Origin: an uncultured Bacteroidales bacterium
GTDB lineage: Bacteria > Bacteroidota > Bacteroidia > Bacteroidales > Paludibacteraceae
Direction: 5' to 3'
Assembly: GCA_902762355.1 (NCBI GenBank)
Contig: CACWNR010000011.1
Coordinates: 1 to 64,000, forward strand
DNA length: 64,000 nucleotides
The notes under the pieces were generated by a model. The model was not told where the DNA came from, searched no databases, and was given only the letters and a program-made list of their open reading frames with translations. This document shows, piece by piece, positions 30,252 through 38,718 of this stretch. The position numbers and the translations under genes were made by a program. Position 1 is the first letter of the stretch. Each line of letters begins with the position of its first letter.

Positions 30252-31547
30252 CTATATCATCATTAAATAAGCAAAATACTTGTACGCTAAATCTTCAATC
30301 GTGCGTTCTCCTTGGGCGAGAGATTGCAGGTCTCCTTCTGTGAGTCGCTCGCTGTATGATTGCTGCTTGAATGTTATGCAGATATATTTCTGTCCAGTTC
30401 GCTCATCGACATGCACATCATCGAACGGCAGTGAACTATGTTGATTGTAACACGGCAAATAGGCCACATTGCGCACATTACCATGAACCGGACATAGCAT
30501 CTTCTTTTCTACCAAATCAGCTATATCACGATTAGCGGTATCCAAAGACACCTCTGCCAATTTAGCCCAATTCTTTGCAGTCAATTTGCCATCATAGCCG
30601 CTAAGATAGATGTTGAGAATTCTCTTCTGCCGTTCGGAACAAGTTATATCTTCGTGGATATGCCAGAAATAGGTTTTGTTCAGGACATTTCCTATGACTG
30701 TATCGGATTCTTTGATTGCTGTCAGCAAGGTATTAAGGAACCATAACAACCAATTTGTGATATCGCTTCCACGTTGGGCACGTTCCAATTCTAGGTAGTA
30801 GTTTTTTCGGTCGGCATAAATAGCCTTAGACATACTATAGTAGCGCAAGTTACTATCCTCTGCTCGCGCTAAGAGCATATCAGAGAGCGCACGAGTGAGA
30901 CGGCCATTACCATCGTCAAACGGGTGAATACACACGAACCAAAAATGAGCGATAGCGGCTTTCAGCGGCGTAGCGGGAATATCGGGATTATTATACCATA
31001 CAATGAACTGCTCCATTTCTGCCGGCACTCGTTCCGGAGCCGGAGCTTCATAACAAACGCGTTCGCGCCCCATATTACCGGAAACGACTTGCATGCCTAC
31101 TTTGCGATACTGCCCGACGTCGATGCGATAAAGTCTTGTGCGCTCTGGTGGGAAAAGCTCTCCATGCCAAGCGAAGAGTCGCTCGGCTGTAAGAGGATGC
31201 ATGTAGTTGCGTGTGGCATCTAAAGAGACGCTTACCATTCCTTCAACATAATGGGAAAGTGCGTCATTCGTTTCTTCATATGGCACACCTAATCGGCGTG
31301 CTACAGATGAACGTACGGAGCGGGTATTCAACGAAACACCTTCAATCTCAGAAGACGAGACGATATCCTGTGTCACGCTCTCTGCTGTTGCTTTGAGTTG
31401 TTCGTCAAACCCGATCATACTCAGCCTACCATGCAAATAACCCAGAGCTTGCGATACTTCAGCCAACCTGGCATCTACTTTGTCGTGATCCCACGAAAAT
31501 TGCGTCCAATTGTTTAATTCGTGAATAAACATAAAGCCATTTACCAT
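30252..31547 (-). CDS. Fic-domain protein (probable AMP transferase) with self-inhibitory motif
   Basis: The 431-residue protein has the Fic catalytic motif HPFDDGNGRLTR (about residues 210-221) and, upstream, the inhibitory-helix motif SSSEIEG at about 71-77, so it is of the class that carries its own inhibitor at the N-terminus. A DUF4172-like N-terminal region (NNWTQFSWDHDKVDARLAEV) and a C-terminal winged-helix-like region (WAKLAEVSLDTANRDIADLV) complete it. Such proteins modify target proteins with AMP and can act as toxins or regulators. An alternative start MFIHEL lies five codons downstream. It is coupled to dtd (3 nt) and has its own promoter. Confidence 0.9.
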   Translation of the reverse strand: MVNGFMFIHELNNWTQFSWDHDKVDARLAEVSQALGYLHGRLSMIGFDEQLKATAESVTQDIVSSSEIEGVSLNTRSVRSSVARRLGVPYEETNDALSHYVEGMVSVSLDATRNYMHPLTAERLFAWHGELFPPERTRLYRIDVGQYRKVGMQVVSGNMGRERVCYEAPAPERVPAEMEQFIVWYNNPDIPATPLKAAIAHFWFVCIHPFDDGNGRLTRALSDMLLARAEDSNLRYYSMSKAIYADRKNYYLELERAQRGSDITNWLLWFLNTLLTAIKESDTVIGNVLNKTYFWHIHEDITCSERQKRILNIYLSGYDGKLTAKNWAKLAEVSLDTANRDIADLVEKKMLCPVHGNVRNVAYLPCYNQHSSLPFDDVHVDERTGQKYICITFKQQSYSERLTEGDLQSLAQGERTIEDLAYKYFAYLMMI

Positions 31548-32130: not shown

Positions 32131-32151
32131 ATTTTTGTGGGATTTTTGTAG

Positions 32152-32230
32152 AAAAAAGGGCGAGGTTGTACCCCACCCTGAATGTTTTCACAACGGAATA
32201 ATCCTTATTGTGTATGTCATTCAAAAAAGT
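32152..32230 (-). ncRNA. tracrRNA of the type II-C CRISPR system
   Basis: The minus-strand RNA begins about 32229 with the anti-repeat (32230-32207), which pairs with bases 1-25 of the CRISPR repeat over 24 bp with one bulged A and a terminal G-U. A nexus AAGGATTATTCCGTT follows, very like the AAGGCTAGTCCGTT of the S. pyogenes tracrRNA. The RNA ends with a terminator: GGGTGGGG/CCTCGCCC (32178-32171/32165-32158) with loop TACAA and six Us (32157-32152). Its promoter is at 32235-32266. The length, about 78 nt, is typical. It is divergent from cas2. Confidence 0.94.
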
Positions 32231-32234
32231 TATG

Positions 32235-32266
32235 CAAAGATACGGCTTTTTTGCGATATATGCAAA
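32235..32266 (-). promoter_or_regulatory. Promoter of tracrRNA
   Basis: On the minus strand TTTG (32266-32263, in TTTGCATATATC) and TATCTTTG (32242-32235) are 20 nt apart, placing the RNA start within the first bases of the anti-repeat. Confidence 0.82.
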
Positions 32267-32282
32267 TATTTTTGCAATTTTC

Positions 32283-32653
<371 letters not shown>

Positions 32654-32708: not shown

Positions 32709-32762
32709 CTAATCCTAAAACAATGTTTAACTTGTTGTGTTTGAGTAAATTATAAATAGTCT
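32709..32762. other. AT-rich stretch between the cas2 terminator and the array (candidate leader)
   Basis: The 54-bp stretch is about 80 percent A+T, adjoins the perfect end of the array and contains CTTGTTGTGTTTGAG, partly like the repeat start GTTGTGT. Because the opposite array end is degenerate, spacer acquisition may happen here. This is inferred from polarity only. Confidence 0.4.
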
Positions 32763-33263
32763 ATTGTTTATGGACTATATTTTACTTTTTTTGAATGACA
32801 TACACAACCCGGGCACGCTGCTTTGTAGATCACGGTGAATTGTTTATGGACTATATTTTACTTTTTTTGAATGACATACACAACCGCCTTCAGGCACCTT
32901 TACTACGCGCACATATTGTTTATGGACTATATTTTACTTTTTTTGAATGACATACACAACCGGTTCGCGCTGATGAACGGCATGCTTAGCATTGTTTATG
33001 GACTATATTTTACTTTTTTTGAATGACATACACAACCGGTCACGGCTAACCAACCGACGCTTTTGATTGTTTATGGACTATATTTTACTTTTTTTTGAAT
33101 GACATACACAACCAAGGTCGCGCACAACAACTTCATCGTGCATTGTTTATGGACTATATTTTACTTTTTTTGAATGACATACACAACAGGCACGTCGTCG
33201 GGAATCGTTGCCATGTGATTGTTTATGGACTATATTTTACTTTTTTTGAATGACATATCAAAG
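32763..33263 (-). CRISPR. Type II-C CRISPR array, 7 repeats and 6 spacers
   Basis: Repeats are 46 bp (one is 47 through an extra T), spaced by 29-30 bp. Starts on the plus strand are at 32763, 32839, 32915, 32991, 33066, 33142 and 33218. In crRNA sense (minus strand, set by the tracrRNA) the repeat begins GTTGTGTATGTCATTC and ends CCATAAACAAT. Six repeats are identical apart from the T-run. The last (33218-33263), 2 bp from the cas1 stop, differs in its final six bases. Long 46-47 bp repeats starting GTTGTG are typical of Bacteroidota II-C. No separate leader promoter exists between cas1 and the array. Confidence 0.98.
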
Positions 33264-33265
33264 AG

Positions 33266-34150
33266 TTACCAATCTGGGTATATAATTTTTCTTGCTTCTC
33301 CGGAGAAGCACTTTTGTACACTTTGAGCAGTTGTTTGGATCGCTAACATCATCGGACTGCGATGTCCGGATATATTCACATCCATCGTTGTAATTCCTAA
33401 TAATTCTCGTTTTTGTTCAGACGATATGTTGCTTGTCAATCCCCCTGCCTGCCACATCTCCAGTACTTTCATATCTACAAACGGGCGGTAGGGCTCCATG
33501 ATATCATCTGCCAAACAATATGCGTCATAACGACTATGGTGATGAATACCCAATGTAGGTAATAATCCTGTGCCTACTAAGGCTCGCGCCATCATAGCGC
33601 GCACTATACTATATCCGTAATTAAGCAGATTATTTGGCGGTAGTCCGAACGGATCACGAATGAACGCATCTTTCTCAAACATATTGCGCCAGTAATATGC
33701 AGCTGCTCGCGCTTCTATATTCTCTGTATCGCCGGAACGCACATCTCTTGCCCACTTGAACATGTTGTTGTGCTCTATATTTAGAGTGCCTAATACATGT
33801 GCTTGTCCAAGTATTTTTGCCACTACCGTTTGTTGCCACATTTGCTTTTTGAGCGGTTCAGAAGCATCTATCTGTGCGCGAAAACGTTCACTCTGCAAGG
33901 TGTTCCCATCCAATGGAAGCATCAAGCCTACCGGCAGATGTTTGTCATTTGATGTTACAATCGCCACATTATTAGCAAGCAAAGCATCAATAAGGGCGTG
34001 AGTTATGGTGATTTGTTTATGATCGAGAATTACGACACCGATGTCCTCAATAGGAAGTGTGCGAGTTACGTCTTGCAACTCGACAACCATCTGCGCTAAT
34101 TTGAGACTCAAACGTGCAGGATTTTCAAAACATAAAACACGCTTTATCAT
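33266..34150 (-). CDS. cas1: CRISPR-associated endonuclease Cas1
   Basis: The 294-residue integrase is of the type II Cas1 kind (LPIEDIGVVILDHKQITITHALIDALL at the start). The metal ligands of Cas1 are recognised in NIEARAAAYYWRN (Glu about 146), the His of LGIHHHSRYDAYCLADD (about 205) and IMEPYRPFVD (Glu about 219). With Cas2 it integrates new spacers. Its ATG overlaps the cas9 stop by 4 nt (ATGA), and its stop lies 2 bp from the degenerate array end, so cas9, cas1 and possibly the array share a transcript. Confidence 0.97.
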   Translation of the reverse strand: MIKRVLCFENPARLSLKLAQMVVELQDVTRTLPIEDIGVVILDHKQITITHALIDALLANNVAIVTSNDKHLPVGLMLPLDGNTLQSERFRAQIDASEPLKKQMWQQTVVAKILGQAHVLGTLNIEHNNMFKWARDVRSGDTENIEARAAAYYWRNMFEKDAFIRDPFGLPPNNLLNYGYSIVRAMMARALVGTGLLPTLGIHHHSRYDAYCLADDIMEPYRPFVDMKVLEMWQAGGLTSNISSEQKRELLGITTMDVNISGHRSPMMLAIQTTAQSVQKCFSGEARKIIYPDW

Positions 34151-37100
34151 GCTTTTGCAATGCGTCCCATTATGTCGATCTTAACTTTATGTGGGAATAA
34201 ATCAAATAGCGCTCCGCAACTTCTAACTCGATATACTTTCCCCATCTCAACGCTCCATCCTAAATTAACTTTACTTTCATCGCCTTCACCATACTTATCA
34301 TCCACCGTAGTTTCTGTATGATAGCGGAACCAATAATCATTACGAGCTACTTTCTGTACGCGGTATAAATGTTTGTTCAGAGTCGCATAGTCCTTCGCTT
34401 CTATTGCATCATTAAATTCATCTTCCTCCATTCCTAACACAAACATCTCGTTTTCTTGCATGGATAACAGATACGACCAATCGTCTTTAGGTAGTTTTTC
34501 TAAGAACTCTTGTGGTAGATTTTTGCCCATCACACTATCCCAAACGGCATGAGGATTTGCAATAACTATTGGCACACCGTATTTCTTACGCTCCACGGCA
34601 TCCCAGAAACTTACAGGGCTGTCAAATGGTTTTCCATCTTTCTCTTTGTATATAGCAACATGGTGGTTGTTTCCTGTTTTAGCGAAACCTATTGCACGAC
34701 CATAATTGTCATATTTAACAGTCACCATAGATGTATCCAGAAGGGATGTAAAACAGCGAACACTCTTTATTTCCATACCTTCAGCGGAATAAAGTGGTTC
34801 TTTGAAAGCGTCTTTTCCTCGTTCAGCGACACGCTTTTGAACCAAAGCACGAATAGTAGGATCTACGATATTCTCCGGTTTCATGGACGGGTGGTCAAGC
34901 GGATACTTGACAACAAACTTATCGCCTAACTTGCCATATATCGTTTCTTCGGTCAACGCTCCACGCGGCACTTGGAGACCTCGCTGCACTATAGTTTTTT
35001 TACCTCCGTTATAGATAGCACGGCGAGCTGGTGTCGTTACGCGTTTGCCTGCACGGAAGGAAACGAGGATACTATCCACGCTATTAGTAACATCGTCCAC
35101 CGAGAAGTGCGGCTGTTCGAGAATCCATTTCTCCAAGAGTGACTTTTTCTCATTATATACCGTATTTGCTTCCTCTACCTCTTTTAACATCTCTTCACGT
35201 GTAAATTCTGCATTGAGAGAATTCAAACGCTGGATATAGGCTTGGCGCGTGAGAGCAACGGTCAAAGCATCTATTGCATGGTGACGATGGTCAATACGTT
35301 TTGACCAATTCTTAATGCGTTCCTCATCATGTTCTTGTCCGGCATGCTCATAATGAACAATTTCTGTGAGATCTTCCACTTGACGATAACGCGGCAAGTT
35401 AAGCGTATGGAGAATCTCATCATATCCCCATTGGTGACGCAAGAAATCGGTTACACTACCGCCGCTTGTCCACACTTGACGAATACCTTGCTGCAAAATC
35501 TCGACTGCCTTAACTGCGATATATTGGCTTTGACGTAATTGGCGATCAATGAAATCGGTCGGAATATCTGTACGATGCCACAAGAGATGATCACGTTTGG
35601 TTTTACTGATCCGCCCTTCTTTGAACGCCTCATCCACACGCTGTTTGTAGGCTTCTACTTCCGATGCAGGCTTTGTTTCTATATAATCCAGCGCTGTCAT
35701 GTTTCCTTTCTCATGATTACATTCTCGACATGCGCACACTTTATTGCTGAAACTATCATCAAACAAGATACTCCGCGGGATAATATGCTCAATCTCTACA
35801 TCTGCGCCATTCAAGAATTCTGCCAAACTAACCGTCTTGCCGCAGTACATACAACGGTGGTTGCTTTCCTCCCACATCTTATATTTTTGTATACGCGAGC
35901 GTGAAGGACGAATGCCCATATCTTCTATCTTAGCGGCTATCTCTTTGTTAAAGCGTTCGTTCTGATTATTGCGTCTATAGGCTCCTTCACGTTCCTCACG
36001 GCTTTGCTTGAGTTCGCGCGCCAACTCTACCCTCGCCTCATCAATCGGTCCATATTCTTGTTGCAGACGATTCACCAGATTAATCATCTGATTTAGGATC
36101 TTCTCAATAACCGGCTGACGCAATGCGTTCTTTTGTAACAACTCAATGTGCTCTGCCAATGGCCTTGCGTCACGCTCTGCGGCAGTCATCGAATTGGAAT
36201 GGTTGATACCGATCCGCGCGCAAGCCTCGCTATACATCATTCCTTCCATTAAGTATGGAAGCAGACAACGAATGAACTTATGCGATTTATTGGCATACCC
36301 CGGTTTGACAAAATCTATCTTGCACAAGGCATCAATAACTTCTTGATCGTCTATACCGAACTTATTACGTAGCGTCTTGGCTAATTCATCTGCATCTTGT
36401 ATAGAATAAACCGCGTGCCACAATTTGAACAACGGAGTCTCTTCTACTTTCGGACTAACCTGCCAGAACACTTCTGCGGTCTCATCATCTACGGCATCAA
36501 TGCGCTCAATCGGCATTTCCAACCACTCACTATATTTGCCTTTTAGAGCTTTGCGTAATTGGTTCAAGGTCGCGTTGCCTTTGATGCCTTTTCCGATTGC
36601 TTTGCCTCCATACCAACCGTCTTTCTTGGTAATACCGAGTATCTTATAGAGGTCGGTTAGTTTAAGAACTTCGTGTTTACAGAGGTGTTCCACTAGTTGT
36701 CTGCGTTCGTCCAAAGAGAACTTATATCGCTCATTATTGCGGTTAGTCAGCGTTATATTGTTAACCGTCTCCCACATCGCGCAGAGTTGCGCTAAAGGCG
36801 AAGTGCGCGGCGCACATTTAGGATCTCCATAAACGACTTTGCCGTCTTTGGTCTTGTACGGTTTCATCTCAAACTCGCACAAACTCACCAAGTGCTTGCA
36901 CGATTTCAGCGGACGCTGATAAAAGATAATCCTATTACGAAGCGTGTCTATCAATTCGTCGGTCAGCACTTCCGGGTAATAGGCTTTCTGCACCTTTATT
37001 ATCTGGTCAAACTCCGCGATATAGGCTGCACGAGGAAAAACCTTATCCTTAATACGGAATGTATAGTACGGACCATTCCCGCTTTCTACTTTGCTGCGCA

Positions 37101-37626
37101 ATAGTTCCAAATAGAAATGTTGACCAACAGTCTGCTTGGCCTCTTGGATTTCTGCGTAACGTTGATTAACTGCCTCTACGTATTTTGTCTGCTTACTATC
37201 CCCATTATCGTCAGACTTTGCGTGTTTGTAACCGCGTTTCTGATTGATATGATAAAGCACACGACCTATCTGTGGCAACGTCAATTGCTTTCCCTCAGTC
37301 GCAGCATCACTACGTAGTTTCCACAAGTCTATCACATTCTCGTCCATGCGTTCTGGAAACATCCCGTTCTGACGCAACACTTGTGTCAATAATGCGCGGC
37401 GTAACTGATATCGATCGTACCCTTTTCGCGTTGTTCGACGCGCTGTGCGATCTGCATTTTTACTTATCGCTTGTCCTTTGGAGAATTGGTCACTATCATC
37501 TTTGGAAATTGGCACTATACGGCTACCCATGCCGACAATACGTTTCGGCTGATCATCTTCTGTCTCAATCAAGGCCCAACCTATTGAGCCTACACCTAAG
37601 TCTAATCCTAGAATGTGTTTTTTTAT
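34147..37626 (-). CDS. cas9: CRISPR-associated endonuclease Cas9, type II-C, without a standard start codon
   Basis: Read from the ATA codon at 37626-37624 the protein has 1159 residues. It holds RuvC-I KKHILGLDLGVGSIGWAL (Asp about 9), an Arg-rich bridge helix (about 57-80), RuvC-II IDEARVELARELKQS (about 529), an HNH domain with two CxxC pairs (CMYC, CREC) and EIEHIIPRS (His about 614), and RuvC-III DHRHHAIDAL (about 779-788). A C-terminal PAM-recognition region follows. No ATG, GTG or TTG lies between the upstream in-frame stop (TGA near 37687) and RuvC-I. The first such codon, TTG at 37572, would delete the RuvC-I Asp. ATA occupies exactly the expected ATG position (MKKHILGLDLG). Either a rare start is used, or the gene is silenced by a point mutation or sequence error. 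It encodes the crRNA/tracrRNA-guided nuclease. Confidence 0.93.
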   Translation of the reverse strand: MKKHILGLDLGVGSIGWALIETEDDQPKRIVGMGSRIVPISKDDSDQFSKGQAISKNADRTARRTTRKGYDRYQLRRALLTQVLRQNGMFPERMDENVIDLWKLRSDAATEGKQLTLPQIGRVLYHINQKRGYKHAKSDDNGDSKQTKYVEAVNQRYAEIQEAKQTVGQHFYLELLRSKVESGNGPYYTFRIKDKVFPRAAYIAEFDQIIKVQKAYYPEVLTDELIDTLRNRIIFYQRPLKSCKHLVSLCEFEMKPYKTKDGKVVYGDPKCAPRTSPLAQLCAMWETVNNITLTNRNNERYKFSLDERRQLVEHLCKHEVLKLTDLYKILGITKKDGWYGGKAIGKGIKGNATLNQLRKALKGKYSEWLEMPIERIDAVDDETAEVFWQVSPKVEETPLFKLWHAVYSIQDADELAKTLRNKFGIDDQEVIDALCKIDFVKPGYANKSHKFIRCLLPYLMEGMMYSEACARIGINHSNSMTAAERDARPLAEHIELLQKNALRQPVIEKILNQMINLVNRLQQEYGPIDEARVELARELKQSREEREGAYRRNNQNERFNKEIAAKIEDMGIRPSRSRIQKYKMWEESNHRCMYCGKTVSLAEFLNGADVEIEHIIPRSILFDDSFSNKVCACRECNHEKGNMTALDYIETKPASEVEAYKQRVDEAFKEGRISKTKRDHLLWHRTDIPTDFIDRQLRQSQYIAVKAVEILQQGIRQVWTSGGSVTDFLRHQWGYDEILHTLNLPRYRQVEDLTEIVHYEHAGQEHDEERIKNWSKRIDHRHHAIDALTVALTRQAYIQRLNSLNAEFTREEMLKEVEEANTVYNEKKSLLEKWILEQPHFSVDDVTNSVDSILVSFRAGKRVTTPARRAIYNGGKKTIVQRGLQVPRGALTEETIYGKLGDKFVVKYPLDHPSMKPENIVDPTIRALVQKRVAERGKDAFKEPLYSAEGMEIKSVRCFTSLLDTSMVTVKYDNYGRAIGFAKTGNNHHVAIYKEKDGKPFDSPVSFWDAVERKKYGVPIVIANPHAVWDSVMGKNLPQEFLEKLPKDDWSYLLSMQENEMFVLGMEEDEFNDAIEAKDYATLNKHLYRVQKVARNDYWFRYHTETTVDDKYGEGDESKVNLGWSVEMGKVYRVRSCGALFDLFPHKVKIDIMGRIAKA

Positions 37627-37675
37627 AGTTTTAATATTGTTGTTTCTGTGGAGTATAGCAGACTCGAAAGATCTT

Positions 37676-38662
37676 TTAATTTTTCTTATTGATCAGGTTG
37701 ACAACCACCTTTACCATGATATCTTTTTCTTCCGTGCGGCTCTCGGCGATCATTAGCGTGAGCGCCACAAGCGTGTTGTCTGCGATACGTTTATGACCTT
37801 CCGGCGTATAAAGGATGCCGTTCCGATCCATGAACCACAAGAACAGCGTAGCTGCAATACGTTTATTGCCATCTGAGAACGAATGGTTTTTCGTTACTAA
37901 GTACAACAACATCGCGGCTTTCTCCTCCACACTCGGATAGAGTTCTTCGCCACCGAACGTCTGATAGATTTGACCTATACTACTCTTGAACGAATCATCT
38001 TTCTCATTGCCAAACAGCCAACTCTCGCCAAACTTCTCCTTGAGCGAGAGAATGGCCTCCATCGCGTTTTCGTACGTGGCATGGAAGCGTTCTGTACCTT
38101 CGGTGTCGCTGATGGCTAAACGCTGATAGTCGTAATTATCTAAGGTGTCGAGCGCGTACGTATAATCGGTAACAACATTAACCAAATCGCGCGCCTCATT
38201 GGTCGTCAATGCTTCATTTTGTATCGTCTGCTGCAAGACACCGACCAACTGCTTGAGCTCCTGGTATTGCTGAAGTTGCATGTTTGTACGTACAGCATAG
38301 CCTTTGACGAGATAGTCCTTGAGAACTTTGTTGGCCCACTGACGGAATTGAACACCGCGTTGAGACTTAACACGATATCCTATTGAGATGATAACATCAA
38401 GCGTATAAAATGGCACAGGTTTCTTGACTCCATTAACGTGTAAAAAATGCACGTTATTATCGCGAGGCAATTCTCCTTCATTAAAAACATTAATGATATG
38501 ACGACGAATGTTAGACTCTTCTTTGCCAAACAATATTGCCATTTGACTCGTGTTTAGCCACACAGTATCCTGATCCAGCTTAACTTGCAGTTGGATGCTA
38601 TTGTCTGGAGCGGTGTAAATCTCTATACCTGATTGCGGAATATGTTGTGGACTATTTGTCAT
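37676..38662 (-). CDS. RhuM-like protein with C-terminal Fic/DOC domain
   Basis: The 328-residue protein begins with a RhuM virulence-protein domain, including a KilA-N/Bro-like start (QLQVKLDQDTVWLNTSQMAILFGKEESNIRRHI). It ends with a Fic/DOC domain whose catalytic motif is HSFSDGNKRIAATLF (about residues 274-288). Such fusions are common in accessory DNA and often behave like toxins or phage-response proteins. The start MTNSPQ is set by the promoter at 38688-38718. It stops 49 nt upstream of the cas9 reading frame on the same strand without an obvious intervening terminator, so cas9 may depend on its transcription. Confidence 0.9.
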   Translation of the reverse strand: MTNSPQHIPQSGIEIYTAPDNSIQLQVKLDQDTVWLNTSQMAILFGKEESNIRRHIINVFNEGELPRDNNVHFLHVNGVKKPVPFYTLDVIISIGYRVKSQRGVQFRQWANKVLKDYLVKGYAVRTNMQLQQYQELKQLVGVLQQTIQNEALTTNEARDLVNVVTDYTYALDTLDNYDYQRLAISDTEGTERFHATYENAMEAILSLKEKFGESWLFGNEKDDSFKSSIGQIYQTFGGEELYPSVEEKAAMLLYLVTKNHSFSDGNKRIAATLFLWFMDRNGILYTPEGHKRIADNTLVALTLMIAESRTEEKDIMVKVVVNLINKKN

Positions 38663-38687: not shown

Positions 38688-38718
38688 CAAAGGTACAACA
38701 AAAAATTGTAATATACAA
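38688..38718 (-). promoter_or_regulatory. Promoter of the RhuM-Fic gene (and possibly cas9-cas1)
   Basis: On the minus strand TTG (38718-38716, in CTTGTATAT) and TACCTTTG (38695-38688) are 20 nt apart. No other such box is seen between here and cas9. Confidence 0.75.

Follow-up and report, generated by a model that had tools for sequence, protein, structure and literature searches.

In bacteria, initiation factor 3 (IF3) discriminates against unusual start codons, and the gene that encodes it, infC, is itself the classic example of a gene with such a start (PMC5472188). According to the accessible portions of two papers, infC is essential in other bacteria and has near-cognate, IF3-autoregulated start codons: ATT in Escherichia coli and ATC in Streptomyces (PMC5472188), and AUA in Staphylococcus aureus (PMC13009471). 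The same portions describe unusual starts that tune further genes, ccpN, cvfC1 and citZ in S. aureus (PMC13009471) and sigR, with a GTC start, in Streptomyces (PMC5472188); none of these four is a cas gene. We analyzed a 64,000-nucleotide stretch of DNA (the window; positions 1 to 64,000 of contig CACWNR010000011.1, assembly GCA_902762355.1) from an uncultured Bacteroidales bacterium of the Paludibacteraceae. It contains a type II CRISPR-Cas (clustered regularly interspaced short palindromic repeats) locus whose cas9 gene has ATA at the position of the start codon. In ccpN, cvfC1, citZ and sigR the unusual start lowers the output of an intact gene, as we propose for this cas9, and the ATA of S. 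aureus citZ is limited to one lineage, as is the ATA of cas9 (PMC13009471, accessible part). Among the records listed from the open-licence literature, none dealt with a cas9 that starts at an unusual codon or has been inactivated in nature.

The closest CRISPR-Cas systems are those of two related Bacteroidales genomes, G163 (locus L031) and G168 (locus L041). They resemble the system in the window in Cas9 (89% and 86% identical, respectively), Cas1, Cas2 and the array, and the array-cas2 block of L041 has the same orientation as that of the window. The differences lie at the front of cas9: all relatives that we read have ATG there and most have a promoter match within 300 nucleotides upstream, whereas the window has neither.

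The cas9 gene occupies a minus-strand frame that extends from a TGA at 37695-37693, the 5' in-frame stop, to the stop codon at 34149-34147 (Table 1). An earlier note on this DNA had put the upstream stop near 37687; the position given here is that of our own count. Its other observations on the frame were borne out: there is no in-frame ATG, GTG or TTG between the TGA and the RuvC-I motif, and the ATA directly precedes AAA AAA CAC, the sequence continuing ATT CTA GGA TTA GAC. The first canonical start codon in the frame is a TTG ten codons past the Asp of GLDLG, which we take to be the catalytic residue of RuvC-I. A protein started at this TTG would lack 18 residues, including that Asp, again as the earlier note had argued. 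This cas9 has no canonical start that retains RuvC-I, a property that does not define the family.

We compared this N-terminus with those of relatives sought in 61, 358 and 393 genomes (the source genome included each time) and in a public genome collection. With the window excluded, 76 loci (L002-L077) yielded 47 distinct readable N-termini and 27 loci (L219-L245) yielded 25 more, not counting duplicate sequences or loci whose sequenced stretch lacked the motif (L228 of the 27, others of the 76). An in-frame ATG was present within 20 codons before the RuvC-I motif in all 72, many of which belong to distant Cas9 proteins with identities down to about 27-45%. At this place both nearest orthologues carry ATG ATA AAA CAC, and the window carries ATA AAA AAA CAC. 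The alignment to L041 is free of gaps (ACT ATG ATA AAA CAC against ACT ATA AAA AAA CAC), and homology continues upstream through the cas9 leader, which argues that the ATG itself changed and that the start site does not lie elsewhere. At two sites, located in the first two codons, the window differs from both neighbors. Of the eight more distant cas9 genes aligned, seven have Lys at codon 2. On these alignments, the difference is an ATG-to-ATA change at the ancestral cas9 start, limited to this species. The comparison with related Bacteroidales that the earlier note had proposed thus places the ATA, with no gap, on the ATG of L041 and L031, and neither the L041 alignment nor the 72 N-termini support relatives with a different, upstream start.

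The remainder of cas9 is intact, with no stop or frameshift over 1158 codons. From 11 cas9 genes aligned by codon, we estimated ratios of nonsynonymous to synonymous substitution (dN/dS) of 0.114 on the window branch, 0.063 on that of L031 and 0.058 on that of L041. The method behind these values is simple, pairwise Nei-Gojobori distances being divided among three taxa; synonymous distances are high (0.84 to 1.27 among the three genes), and the branching order of the three is weakly resolved (support 69). Purifying selection has acted over most of the window cas9 branch; a rough mixture estimate would leave about 6% of that branch for neutral drift. Because of this low ratio and the absence of stops and frameshifts, any inactivity of Cas9 must be young. 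There are neither further disabling changes nor clearly relaxed selection of the kind that marks a pseudogene, although a loss of very recent date would leave no such trace.

Because IF3 disfavors unusual starts and infC is the classic gene with one, we examined infC. The infC of the source genome (G000) has ATA at about position 42653 of contig C12 (locus L185:1456). No canonical codon occurs between the upstream stop and the IF3 core, and the first one lies 48 codons after the ATA. Examination of 36 genomes of the genus gave 34 infC loci, our own counted once (G004, G211 and G148 gave none listed), and 33 had a readable N-terminus (L218 is cut). Assigned by eye, the start column contained ATA in 25 loci, ATC in five and ATG in three. 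We took this column to be the start because the ATG loci mark it (MAYPQPN against IAYPQNG). Seventeen of the 25 ATA loci have no in-frame canonical codon upstream. Nineteen of the 33 loci have a Shine-Dalgarno match of the GGAGG or AGGAG type before the start. The infC genes of the window's species, G163 and G168 lack such a match and keep ATA, so initiation at AUA need not depend on one.

The pattern extends to other families of the order, from which we read 34 infC loci (8, and 26 new ones from a second set comprising the best 30 of 60); infC was present in all 60 genomes of the wider search. Some of the start readings are ambiguous, that of L183 for example. A near-cognate codon was anchored by a Shine-Dalgarno match in 20 of the 34 loci (16 ATA, 2 ATT and 2 ATC) and a canonical start in none, while 10 of the 14 loci without a match had ATG. 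Bacteroidales infC (L177-L217 and L246-L271) thus often has ATA behind a strong Shine-Dalgarno sequence, though the class mostly does without such motifs. The pattern looks like conserved IF3 autoregulation. Since a gene that is essential in other bacteria keeps ATA at a conserved start column, initiation at AUA is likely in this organism. In cas9, as in near-cognate infC, ATA is the only start that would keep the conserved N-terminus; near-cognate starts of infC are conserved within the genus and the order, whereas that of cas9 is confined to this species and is not conserved among its orthologues. The titles and abstracts listed from the open-licence literature gave no description of the infC start or its Shine-Dalgarno sequence in Bacteroidetes, and the word infC is absent from PMC9976891 and PMC8710568.

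ATA starts do not appear to be common in this genome, a draft of 1.94 Mb in 36 contigs that is 75.9% complete and has one match to this Cas9. We compared reading frames between 864 kb of it and about 1.04 Mb of G168, stretches that do not include infC. Among 129 non-overlapping frame pairs, a canonical start was found at the relative's position in 87 and within 20 codons of it in 35 (cas9 is counted here owing to its TTG); there was no near start in the relative in five and none in our own frame in two. Nine of the 114 pairs of at least 150 amino acids lost at least three identical residues before our own first canonical start. Judged by eye, cas9 was the only real gene of the nine whose N-terminus is conserved and whose start is lost; the plus-strand frame in L104 is frameshifted and the others are antisense frames or alignments that run into the leader. 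With cas9 the sole such gene in 114 pairs, ATA starts seem to be rare here and the genetic code unchanged. At L104 (12066-12823, G000:C3), a gene that is open in G168 is split over two frames, either through a frameshift of natural origin or through an error in the consensus.

The sequence around the cas9 start has several features relevant to initiation. The leader has A at -3, -6 and -12; in the accessible part of a study of Flavobacterium johnsoniae, a relative that lacks Shine-Dalgarno sequences, A at these positions and at -13 is favorable for initiation (PMC6847099). The infC leader of the source genome has A at -6 and -12 and C at -3. The 10-mer TAAAACTATA, which spans the cas9 start, also occurs at the infC start in 5 of the 42 loci searched. 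Leader structure was rejected as a substitute for the usual start signal: an 80-nucleotide fold was no better than shuffled sequences (z 0.19). As a guide to output, AUA and AUU starts of S. aureus gave about 10% of the AUG level; one gene reached as much as 30% in rich medium (PMC13009471, accessible part).

We searched upstream regions for strict matches to a Bacteroidetes-type promoter (TTG, 17-25 nucleotides, TAnnTTTG), a pattern we presume to be the consensus of the phylum. A match was found within 300 nucleotides upstream of cas9 in 11 of 16 relatives and was missing in the other five (fewer than 300 nucleotides were readable in three of the relatives); as a control, 2 of 55 pieces from inside cas9 had one. 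The 1150 nucleotides upstream of cas9 in the window contain only two matches, 1092 and 1145 nucleotides away, and both precede a RhuM-Fic gene that lies directly upstream of cas9. Read-through from this gene may transcribe cas9. The RhuM-Fic protein matches the PADLOC candidate defence family PDC-S23 (448.6 bits). A second Fic-domain gene (DUF4172-Fic, 30252-31547) lies on the other side, so that two such genes flank the CRISPR locus. Together with the RhuM-Fic gene, a 3'-end remnant of tRNA-Ala(GGC) in the cas9 leader occupies the place of the missing promoter match; the remnant is also present in L041, and the intact gene is elsewhere in the genome (G000:C8:56382). Further 3'-end remnants are found at G000:C8:109069, G163:C38:17208 and G168:C8:95648, and these short remnants suggest repeated integration at the tRNA-Ala(GGC) gene. 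Just upstream of cas9 in G168 (L041, 2945-2990) there is a short tRNA-Ala with both ends kept and the anticodon part deleted. The earlier account of the locus was incomplete in that the ATA of infC, the missing promoter match, the Fic gene, the tRNA scar and the overlap of cas9 with cas1 (below) had gone unnoticed.

The best reading of these data, which we favor with somewhat better than even confidence on comparative grounds, is attenuated and possibly IF3-sensitive translation of full-length Cas9 from AUA. An otherwise intact type II cas9 would have had its ancestral ATG turned into ATA in this species. The initiator tRNA would most likely still start there, as is apparently needed for infC of the same genome. 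The level of full-length Cas9 would be low, held down by the mismatch at the third base and probably reduced further by IF3. Because the ATG of cas1 overlaps the cas9 stop codon (ATGA), weak translation of cas9 could lower Cas1 as well. The earlier note had left three options, a rare start, recent silencing and a base error. The rare start is now the best supported, because infC of the same genome has ATA and cas9 is strongly constrained; the other two remain as rivals. Several observations weigh against a rare start. A near-cognate start occurs in none of the 72 other cas9 N-termini, and the ATA therefore cannot be called a conserved control. The leader has C, not A, at -13, and there is no promoter match within 300 nucleotides upstream. 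The accessible part of the S. aureus study describes extended Shine-Dalgarno motifs at three AUA or AUU sites (PMC13009471); cas9 has no such motif, so its output could be below the S. aureus values. IF3 disfavors weak third-base pairs in a reconstituted E. coli system (PMC10158994, accessible part). Eight of the 25 ATA infC loci of the genus (ours not among them) have an in-frame canonical codon further upstream, in L206 and L213 an ATG or TTG only four codons from the ATA, and ATA is therefore not proven as the infC start in every locus. Finally, dN/dS on the window branch is about twice that of both neighbors, a mild point for recent relaxation.

This slight rise is also what would be expected if cas9 had recently been silenced, its promoter displaced by the Fic gene, its start codon lost, residual AUA initiation negligible and decay just begun. 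We consider such silencing possible but doubtful. Start codon and promoter are two independent weakenings and the array has only six spacers, but 1158 codons without a stop or frameshift, a dN/dS far below 1 and an apparently functional ATA in infC speak against silencing, and the match that precedes the Fic gene could act as promoter for Fic and cas9 alike. Self-targeting was rejected as a cause of silencing: all six spacers, compared with 864 kb of the source genome, had matches of at most 16 nucleotides outside the array, and one of the six, searched against the whole genome with up to three mismatches, matched the array only. That the ATA is a metagenome consensus error and the organism has ATG seems distinctly unlikely. 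The sequence comes from a single, incomplete draft, no other assembly of the species turned up, a run of A directly follows the ATA, and the gene split at L104 may be another error; against this, two nearby sites differ from both neighbors, and nothing else in cas9 looks suspicious. A single wrong base would be enough, however, since Lys at codon 2 is natural in seven of the eight more distant cas9 genes. Initiation elsewhere, at an in-frame ATT three codons upstream (37635-37633), at the TTG or by a frameshift from the Fic gene, is highly improbable. ATT, too, is near-cognate, and no stop closes the cas9 frame before it reaches, upstream, the end of the Fic gene. However, the residues before the TTG are nearly identical to those of the relatives, which argues that they are in use or were until lately, and in L041, whose leader is homologous, both the in-frame ATT and the Fic junction are missing. 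An upstream start or a Fic-cas9 fusion was rejected because the Fic frame is a different one that ends at its own TAA, and because L041 does not share the junction.

The rest of the locus is that of a type II system, with a Cas9 that has RuvC and HNH domains, type II cas1 and cas2, and a repeat array (Table 1). The earlier note had called the neighboring parts intact; family searches and the seven repeats confirm this for cas1, cas2 and the array, and the tracrRNA (trans-activating CRISPR RNA)-like stretch was recognized by eye only. The array repeats are spaced 75-76 nucleotides apart. Of the repeats at 33065-33111 and 33217-33262, one has an extra T in a T-run, and the cas1-side one is diverged at one end. 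The cas2 gene sits between the tracrRNA-like stretch and the array, and BLAST shows this order of the block in L041 as well. Exact searches of viral contigs with four of the six spacers gave no matches; no Cas9 relatives were confirmed in viral contigs, and the DNA pattern of the cas9 start was not found there.

Table 1. Features of the CRISPR-Cas locus and its upstream region (positions in the window).
Feature	Position	Strand	Support or remark
cas9, 1159 codons counted from ATA, plus stop	34147..37626	-	TIGR01865 526.7 bits (cut-off 100), residues 4-1111; HNH_4, RuvC_III
ATA codon, ancestral cas9 start position	37624..37626	-	aligned to ATG of L041 and L031
RuvC-I Asp codon (codon 9), in GLDLG	37600..37602	-	
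TTG, first canonical in-frame start codon (codon 19)	37570..37572	-	
3'-end remnant of tRNA-Ala(GGC), 22 nt, in cas9 leader	37648..37669	-	common to L041
RhuM-Fic gene, start taken at ATG, 50 nt upstream of cas9 ATA	37676..38662	-	Pfam Virulence_RhuM, Fic
Bacteroidetes-type promoter match before Fic gene, second-nearest strict match upstream of cas9	38688..38718	-	
cas1, ATG overlapping cas9 stop	33266..34150	-	TIGR03639 298.3 bits; Cas1_II 374.4 bits
CRISPR array, 7 repeats, 6 spacers of 29-30 nt	32762..33262	- (transcribed strand, presumed)	
cas2, strand opposite to cas9 and cas1	32321..32653	+	TIGR01573 62.9 bits; Cas2_II 151.8 bits
tracrRNA-like stretch, anti-repeat and terminator-like hairpin	32150..32235 (approximate limits)	-	complementarity read by eye

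Should AUA really be the start of Cas9, one base would serve as a natural dimmer of CRISPR immunity and tie it to the fidelity of translation. With both infC and cas9 starting at AUA, Cas9, and Cas1 through the ATGA overlap, might even be under the control of IF3, such that immunity tracks the balance of initiation factors; we regard this extension as unlikely. If it were true, immunity would be low by default and would rise when IF3 is short relative to ribosomes, and autoimmunity would be limited. If AUA is the working start, annotation restricted to ATG, GTG and TTG would strip the catalytic Asp from a working Cas9 or label its gene a pseudogene. The ATA start of infC, often behind a Shine-Dalgarno sequence, makes IF3 autoregulation in Bacteroidales directly testable.

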